Source of the DNA: a virus
Virus record (IMG/VR): IMGVR_UViG_3300009082_000021
Coordinates: 1-64,000 of that record
Reading direction: 5' to 3' (one strand)
DNA: 64,000 nucleotides
In this document: positions 652-1,316 of the stretch, piece by piece
Layout: each line of letters opens with the position of its first letter
Numbering within the stretch: position 1 is the first letter of the stretch
The notes under the pieces: generated by a model
The model's input: only the letters and a program-made list of their open reading frames with translations
Databases searched by the model: none
What the model was told of the DNA's origin: nothing
Made by a program: the position numbers and the translations under genes

Positions 652-798
652 CAAAAAAAGAAACCGAACGGGCGAGTGGGTAAGCTGTTTTGGTTGCGAT
701 GGCTGGATTTGAACCAGCTACACTCTGACTATTAGTCAGATGCTCTACCCAATGAGCTACGTCGTCTTGTAGGCTTGCCCTGTTGCCCGTTCGGTTTC
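652..798 (-). terminator. Terminator-like hairpin with a tRNA in its loop
   Basis: The arms 660-685 and 773-798 are inverted repeats of 26 bases with about five mismatches. On the minus strand the distal arm runs directly into TTTTTTT (652-659). That is the layout of an intrinsic terminator, except that its 87-base 'loop' holds a tRNA-like sequence (691-766). It closes the minus-strand tRNA array. Confidence 0.6.
691..766 (-). tRNA. tRNA-like gene, anticodon AAT by position (Ile?)
   Basis: The D-arm (TAGCTCATTGGGTAGAGC), a perfect 5-bp anticodon stem with loop CTAATAG, T-arm GCTGG-TTCAAAT-CCAGC and an encoded CCA are clear. The acceptor stem is poor: GACGACG against CATCGCA pairs at only 4 of 7 positions. 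A bacterial-type tRNA with A34 here is unusual. The decamer GCCTACAAGA directly precedes the acceptor. It may be a degenerate or processed-differently tRNA. Confidence 0.5.
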
Positions 799-897
799 AG
801 AGGTTGATCCGACATCTTTCCGTTTCCCTAACACGATCTCCCCGGATTACCGGCGACAGCGTTAGTGTACTAGGGCGGACAATCGGATCAGATAAGA

Positions 898-1051
898 GGT
901 CATGGGATGATGGGGGGACTTGAGGAGTTGAACCTCATCTTGTAGGCCCATCAGTTTGATCCCCGAAGAGATCGAGTAGTCGGGCGGGTACTCTTGATTC
1001 CACATCAAGTGCCTGTCCGCCAGGCTCTAGTCCCCCCACCATCCCATGACC
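898..1051. repeat. 24-base inverted repeat enclosing a tRNA-like gene
   Basis: Arms 898-921 and 1028-1051 are complementary over 24 bases with one G-U-compatible mismatch near the centre. They extend the acceptor stem of the enclosed tRNA-like sequence well beyond seven pairs. Confidence 0.7.
912..1037 (-). tRNA. tRNA-like gene with about 55-base insertion in the variable region (1)
   Basis: The acceptor arms GGGGGGACT/AGTCCCCCC pair over 9 bp. D-arm GCCTGGCGGACAGGC, anticodon stem CTTGA/TCAAG with loop TGTGGAA, and T-arm TGAGG-TTCAACT-CCTCA follow. Between anticodon and T arms lie about 55 bases: ACCCGCCCG, a hairpin GATCTC-TTCG-GGGATC, and GGGCCTACAAGA. Related insertions occur in the next two genes. 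By position the anticodon would be TGG with G33; shifted by one it is GGA (Ser). I leave identity open. Confidence 0.5.
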
Positions 1052-1055
1052 AAGG

Positions 1056-1179
1056 CGCCGGAGCTGGGAGTCGAACCCAGTTTCTTGTAGGCCCAATCTG
1101 GTGACCTCCGAAGAGATCGAGTGACCGAGCGGGTATTGATCGATGGAATAATCGATTGACCGCCGTGGTCGTCTCCGGC
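1056..1179 (-). tRNA. tRNA-like gene with about 55-base insertion in the variable region (2)
   Basis: Acceptor GCCGGAG/CTCCGGC and T-arm CTGGG-TTCGACT-CCCAG are perfect. The anticodon arm is the self-complementary ATCGAT...ATCGAT with a 6- or 8-base loop, so no anticodon can be assigned. The insertion matches the neighbour closely: ACCCGCTCGG, ACTCGATCTCTTCGG (a UUCG-capped hairpin), then GGGCCTACAAGA just before the T-arm. Confidence 0.5.
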
Positions 1180-1187
1180 AAAAGCAG

Positions 1188-1316
1188 TGGGGAGCCCTGG
1201 ATTCGAACCAGGATGTCTTGTAGGCCAGCCTTATTGGGACTCGAAAGTCCCGAGACGGTTAGCGGGTGTTTGCTTGATTTACCGTCAAGTGCCTTTACCA
1301 ATTCGGCCAGCTCCCC
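1188..1316 (-). tRNA. tRNA-like gene with about 55-base insertion in the variable region (3)
   Basis: Acceptor GGGGAGC/GCTCCCC, D-arm with AATTGGTAAA loop, anticodon stem CTTGA/TCAAG with loop CGGTAAA, and T-arm CCTGG-TTCGAAT-CCAGG are all present. The insertion carries ACACCCGC, a hairpin GGGACT-TTCG-AGTCCC and GGCCTACAAGA. By position the anticodon is GTA (Tyr) with G33 replacing U33; shifted by one it is TAA (Leu). Both amino acids use long variable arms, but not of this length. Confidence 0.5.

Follow-up and report, generated by a model that had tools for sequence, protein, structure and literature searches.

A single RNA arm of approximately 55 nt is shared across dozens of uncultured phages, most of them very large, where it accompanies tRNA genes in three layouts. 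Judging from its sequence and its placement, the arm is probably a tRNA-splicing element of large phages and would define a new class of tRNA introns and permuted tRNA genes. In the cis layout, it is a closed hairpin inside a tRNA gene, in most cases after the anticodon arm and before the T stem. In the permuted layout, the 3' half comes first, and the arm, opened at its tip, is the junction of a circularly permuted tRNA gene. In the enclosed layout, the arm, likewise opened at its tip, brackets a whole tRNA.

tRNA-like genes of the window virus

The window, the 64-kb stretch analyzed here, comes from a 68-kb IMG/VR virus record (G000). A second IMG/VR contig (G001, 137 kb), with 100% identity to the window virus over 5.7 kb, represents the same virus and carries approximately 40 ordinary tRNAs and one tmRNA. 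The tail sheath and helicase genes indicate that the window virus is a tailed phage. Three minus-strand genes, A (1188..1316), B (1056..1179), and C (912..1037), sit at the end of its tRNA cluster. An earlier note on this DNA had credited them with good acceptor and T arms, and in all three the acceptor indeed has 7 Watson-Crick pairs and the T stem 5 pairs. Each gene also has a D hairpin and an anticodon-like one, and the shared arm lies between the latter and the T arm. The anticodon loop of gene A is CGGUAAA (GUA, Tyr-like, with G33), gene B has an 8-nt anticodon-type loop (UUAUUCCA), and the loop of gene C is UGUGGAA. Folding of genes A, B, and C exceeds that of dinucleotide shuffles (z of -2.5, -4.4, and -4.0), and a covariance model of the arm plus the T arm (CM R1) scores them at 67.1, 71.1, and 59.6 bits, respectively. 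ARAGORN called none of the three. The covariance search proposed in the earlier note succeeded in part: the Rfam tRNA model at relaxed thresholds detected gene A (47.8 bits, with approximately 57 nt set aside as an insertion) and did not detect genes B and C.

An inverted-repeat search showed that the acceptor of gene C is extended by a 27-nt inverted repeat (898-924 and 1025-1051, minus strand, 93% complementary); its stem, within 898-1051, is much longer than any tRNA acceptor. Two other tRNA-like genes of the window virus are located on the minus strand of locus L143 (G001:117000-125500). The first (approximately 4145-3995, GGGGCGU...ACGCCCCA) has an insertion that is much longer than the arm and different in structure, with no Rfam match at the gathering score. 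The second (approximately 3967-3890) resembles tRNA-Gly and has an elongated anticodon hairpin (CCUGUGCUCCCGUAAGGGCACGCAGG).

Anatomy and covariation of the arm

In genes A–C, the arm consists of a linker ending in ACCC, an 8-bp stem1, a 4x4 internal loop, a 6-bp stem2, and a UUCG cap, and it returns through stem2', a 4-nt ANNN strand, stem1', and CUACAAG, which is followed after 1–4 nt by the T arm. The 5' side of the internal loop is N-CUC, opposite the ANNN return strand. A geometric detector placed the arm of gene A at 1217..1268 on the minus strand, with CACCC at 1268-1264, stem1 at 1263-1256, UCUC at 1255-1252, stem2 at 1251-1246, UUCG at 1245-1242, stem2' at 1241-1236, AAUA at 1235-1232, stem1' at 1231-1224, and CUACAAG at 1223-1217. 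The arm of gene B (1084..1135, minus) has a UACCC flank, stem1 (1130-1123), ACUC, stem2 (1118-1113), UUCG, stem2' (1108-1103), ACCA, stem1' (1098-1091), and CUACAAG (1090-1084). The arm of gene C (939..990, minus) has the same UACCC flank, followed by stem1 (985-978), ACUC, stem2 (973-968), UUCG, stem2' (963-958), AAAC, stem1' (953-946), and CUACAAG (945-939). The shared insertion described in the earlier note, with its 6-bp UUCG hairpin and GCCTACAAGA, is exact in all three genes. ACCCGC and GCCTACAAGA, which it had taken as flanks of the hairpin, are present as described but are not mere flanks: their inner ends (GC...GC) pair to close the 8-bp stem1 below the 4x4 loop. The number of decamer matches in the 64-kb window was reached by no shuffle of the window. 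An attachment site was rejected as the identity of the decamer, which belongs to an RNA arm that covaries.

The consensus of 28–31 aligned sequences comprises 8 bp, a symmetric 4x4 loop, and 6 bp, and alignments of relatives contain compensatory changes in every helix. The covariation score was 0.68 in one alignment (0.19 shuffled) and 0.76 in another (0.23 shuffled), and 0/500 shuffles reached the observed value in either; these scores are 3–4 times those of shuffles and slid pairings. The least variable letters are CUC, the G-C pair opening stem2, and YNACA[AC]G. The earlier note had considered that the same loci in relatives might be random decayed tRNAs; the structure instead covaries strongly across relatives. 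It is thus very improbable that these loci are remnants, that is, decaying tRNAs or a mobile DNA repeat devoid of RNA function. Tandem, partly duplicated copies and a window tRNA-Ile with an imperfect acceptor (described below) would suit such an origin, but strong compensatory change in each helix contradicts decay, and the arm recurs in unrelated large phages.

Distribution among phages

An initial broad pattern over viral contigs gave chance matches almost throughout, with a T loop behind the motif in the window virus alone. Scanning viral contigs for the motif plus a T loop, followed by a tighter scan, located the arm in many large phages. At E <= 1e-5, CM R1 gave 75 matches spread over regions from 22 phage contigs, with at most eight per phage. 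Together, the covariance model and the geometric detector found the arm at approximately 48 loci from approximately 35 large-phage contigs, where the 48 loci include several from one contig or from sister contigs. The detector requires the motif, CUC, stem1, stem2, and the T arm, and does not require acceptor pairing. Over all loci, it counted approximately 77 cis, 20 permuted, and 25 enclosed elements. In 245 kb of carrier regions, the counts were 19, 11, and 8, respectively; the reversed carrier regions, 10 shuffles, and 1.2 Mb of other viral contigs all gave zero. At least six of the seven acceptor pairs form in 30/32 parsed elements, 27 of them with all pairs Watson-Crick, and the T stem has 4–5 pairs in 32/32. 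In bacterial genome collections, strong matches were confined to three contigs of metagenome-assembled genomes (L331, L338, and L340), which are perhaps phage contigs. BLASTn of the window cluster and three other carriers against INPHARED phages returned ordinary tRNAs or nothing, and no arm-bearing isolate.

Letters of the motif also occur in other RNAs. Another conserved tRNA-like RNA (ACAUUACUUGCCCGACCGUAAAAGUCGUGGUAAACUACAAGAGAAAGAGGUUCGAAUCCUCGGGACUGGUAGUGU) also has CUACAAG and is usually found beside tRNA genes in other phages (L150, L166, L169, L177, L186, L192, L214, L217, L222, L226, and L249). Ordinary class II tRNAs with UACAAG in the variable arm (GUUCUACAAGGAAC and similar) occur at L147, L156, L168, L183, and L212; this UACAAG is probably unrelated to the new arm.

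Cis genes and the anticodon-loop insertions

The Rfam tRNA model fits cis genes with the insertion in the variable region or in the anticodon loop. The arm is inside the anticodon loop in three genes, two in G020 (L326; 57.7 and 48.2 bits) and one in G012 (L230; 55.8 bits). In these genes, the model sets aside 66–78 nt in the loop, and the tRNA is otherwise canonical. Because an arm in the anticodon loop would block decoding unless it were excised, tRNA splicing is the likeliest mechanism. A giant class II variable arm was rejected as a full account, as an ordinary class II variable arm precedes the inserted arm in L258 and L153 and follows it in L315. When the arm was deleted in silico, ARAGORN called 48/58 cis genes, well separated from the swapped-half control (407/1160, 35%).

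If cis genes were cut at CUACAA^G, the modal variable loop would be 5 nt (30/77). As a universal 3' cut site, CUACAA^G suits enclosed genes and this modal loop but fails for the anticodon-loop genes. There, the exon restarts 3–8 nt past CUACAAG, and the motif is therefore not a fixed cut site. A search for exon borders using intronless homologs gave one useful case, L230 compared with a tRNA-Val.

Among 7-nt anticodon loops of cis genes, U33 is absent in 23/44, compared with 18/270 in ordinary tRNAs of the same regions (p 2e-12), and loops such as CGGUAAA are recurrent in unrelated phages. The missing U33 would fit decoys or anticodon-nuclease resistance. As decoys, the genes would give tRNA-like RNAs, perhaps circular after ligation, that absorb host anticodon nucleases or other tRNA-directed defenses, and the carrier phages already possess near-complete sets of ordinary tRNAs. 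We nevertheless regard a decoy role as improbable, partly because cis genes have almost flawless acceptors and T stems and varied tRNA identities.

Permuted genes

Genes with the 3' half upstream and acceptor pairing over a short linker are found in relatives and not in the window. Three of them lie in one cluster of G014 (L317). Each begins with stem2', the internal loop, stem1', CUACAAG or AUACAAG, the T arm, and the 3' acceptor; a small-hairpin linker then leads to the 5' acceptor, D arm, anticodon arm, stem1, ACUC, and stem2. Further permuted genes are present in approximately 10 phages, and in some the acceptor strands are only 4–7 nt apart. The acceptor pairs across the linker even though the detector did not demand an acceptor. 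ARAGORN called 15/15 permuted genes after deletion of the arm, but this is a weak test, as swapped halves were also called in 247/300 cases (82%). U33 is present in 3/4 permuted 7-nt loops. The gene at L246 (minus strand, 3470) is a permuted tRNA gene whose UCA anticodon would decode UGA stops.

The permuted layout also points to splicing as the likeliest mechanism, given that studied permuted tRNA genes mature by cutting and joining (PMC3978253). The arm might alternatively be retained, as a giant fifth arm bound by a phage protein in cis genes and as a clamp holding two-piece, unligated tRNAs in permuted genes. The arms fold stably and frequently end in GNRA or UUCG loops, permuted tmRNAs and rRNAs function as two unligated pieces (PMC3978253), and most cis genes could be functional even with the arm kept. 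Retention is nonetheless unlikely in our assessment, as it conflicts with the three anticodon-loop genes and leaves the enclosed layout unexplained.

Enclosed genes and tRNA-Ile

Approximately 25 enclosed cases include a tRNA-Ile(AAU) in the window (691..766, minus), identified by ARAGORN, the Rfam tRNA model, and the detector. It lies in an open arm (660..798, minus), which was recognized as an inverted repeat with a fold z of -7.9 and assigned to the enclosed type by the detector. Ahead of the tRNA come stem2' (798-785), AACA (784-781), stem1' (780-773), and CUACAAG (772-766), and behind it come stem1 (685-678), ACUC (ACTC in DNA, 677-674), and stem2 (673-660), the last forming a perfect 14-bp helix. 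Nucleotide 1 of an enclosed tRNA is the last G of the motif, here G766. The fourth decamer that the earlier note had seen before this tRNA is thus present; rather than standing alone, it forms the end of the open arm's 3' strand.

The acceptor of tRNA-Ile is paired at 4/7 positions, and enclosed tRNAs in general have acceptors of 2–7 pairs, often just 2–6. These tRNAs might become circular. Their short acceptors would suit decoys, whereas the presence of U33 in most enclosed 7-nt loops, as in the permuted ones, argues against them, and a decoy would have no need of a common arm in three layouts.

Candidate enzymes

RtcB performs the ligation step of tRNA splicing in archaea and animals. It is encoded in 8/27 carrier contigs and in 0/18 other contigs, which are smaller on average (Fisher p 0.014); among contigs of at least 200 kb, the difference (7/13 carriers vs 0/4 others, p 0.10) is not significant. 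The carriers with RtcB are G002, G004, G014, G019, G020, G024 (two copies), and G042, and G012 has a fragment. RtcB was not found in several large carriers (G011, G018, and G044) or in the incomplete window-virus records. We regard this association as supporting evidence only. An Rnl2-type ligase is present in G003, G019, and G020, and the PF09511 (Rnl1) profile matched neither the contigs nor its positive controls.

The archaeal-type endonuclease (PF01974) was found in 0/21 carrier contigs, and its positive control matched in four archaea. Proteins around rtcB at eight loci include no common nuclease. These two results accord with a retained arm; it is also possible that a host endonuclease acts as a bulge-helix-bulge (BHB)-type cutter.

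Proposed splicing pathway

We propose a splicing pathway based on the three layouts. The precursor RNA would fold so that the arm closes, and both strands would be cut at the arm base, either by an endonuclease of the phage or host or by the RNA acting alone. The exon ends would then be sealed, plausibly by RtcB or another ligase. The product would be an armless tRNA from a cis gene, a tRNA whose halves stand in the correct order from a permuted gene, and a tRNA that is trimmed or circular from an enclosed gene. In the window, A, B, and C would accordingly be tRNA genes with one intron each, and 660-798 would hold an enclosed tRNA-Ile. Among the introns, giant variable arms, and decoys offered in the earlier note, introns are best supported, by the anticodon-loop and permuted layouts, both of which the variable arm fails to cover. 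We suggest more tentatively that bacteriophages may have a third tRNA-splicing route, in which a new endonuclease or the arm RNA itself makes the cuts and RtcB seals the ends, so that introns are removed, permuted tRNAs are put in order, and enclosed genes give circular tRNAs.

Comparison with known systems

Permuted tRNA genes and tRNA introns that are not self-splicing are known from archaea and eukaryotes. The BHB motif of such systems has two 3-nt bulges 4 bp apart, and the introns lie at 37/38 or elsewhere in a tRNA whose joined exons are canonical. Like the BHB introns of archaea and red and green algae, the phage arm lies within tRNAs at canonical and non-canonical positions, and, like algal and archaeal permuted tRNA genes, the permuted phage genes have the 3' half first and a junction with the same motif as the introns. 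The algal and archaeal genes mature by splicing (PMC3978253). The phage arm differs from the 3-nt/4-bp/3-nt BHB in having a 4x4 internal loop and a CUACAAG linker, in its occurrence in bacterial viruses, and in that no EndA-family endonuclease (PF01974) accompanied it in the 21 contigs searched.

Bacterial two-piece tmRNAs, which contain a tag reading frame, also have a permuted order and pieces joined by base pairing. However, the phage genes are tRNAs with anticodon arms, and the arm is also found closed in unpermuted genes; ARAGORN and Rfam called no tmRNA at genes A–C, and the phage's own tmRNA is separate. Group I introns have a catalytic core (P3–P8) and a length of approximately 200 nt or more. 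They too interrupt tRNA genes, but the phage arm is far shorter, does not have the group I core, and did not match RF00028. No family in Rfam 15 matched the arm at the gathering score, the matches, also at E <= 1, being to tRNA and to one separate group I intron. This true group I intron (L302 351-581, 76.6 bits) is in the same tRNA region of G004, a 436-kb phage with new arms, and appears to interrupt a tRNA. Class II tRNAs share an extra arm between the anticodon and T arms; by contrast, several phage members have a class II arm plus the new arm, which also occurs elsewhere in the tRNA. As with RtcB in jumbo phages, the ligase would join cyclic-phosphate and 5'-OH ends, but that RtcB has been interpreted as tRNA repair, in a source that reports no connection with introns (PMC7824862).

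The earlier note knew of no matching class, and we likewise found none in Rfam 15 or in the literature searched, which reports no permuted tRNA genes or non-self-splicing tRNA introns in bacteria or their viruses. If the arm is spliced, large phages carry a novel RNA-processing enzyme or ribozyme, and many of their tRNA genes have been missed by standard tRNA finders. Furthermore, splicing would require the role of phage RtcB to be rethought and would provide a new route to RNA circularization.
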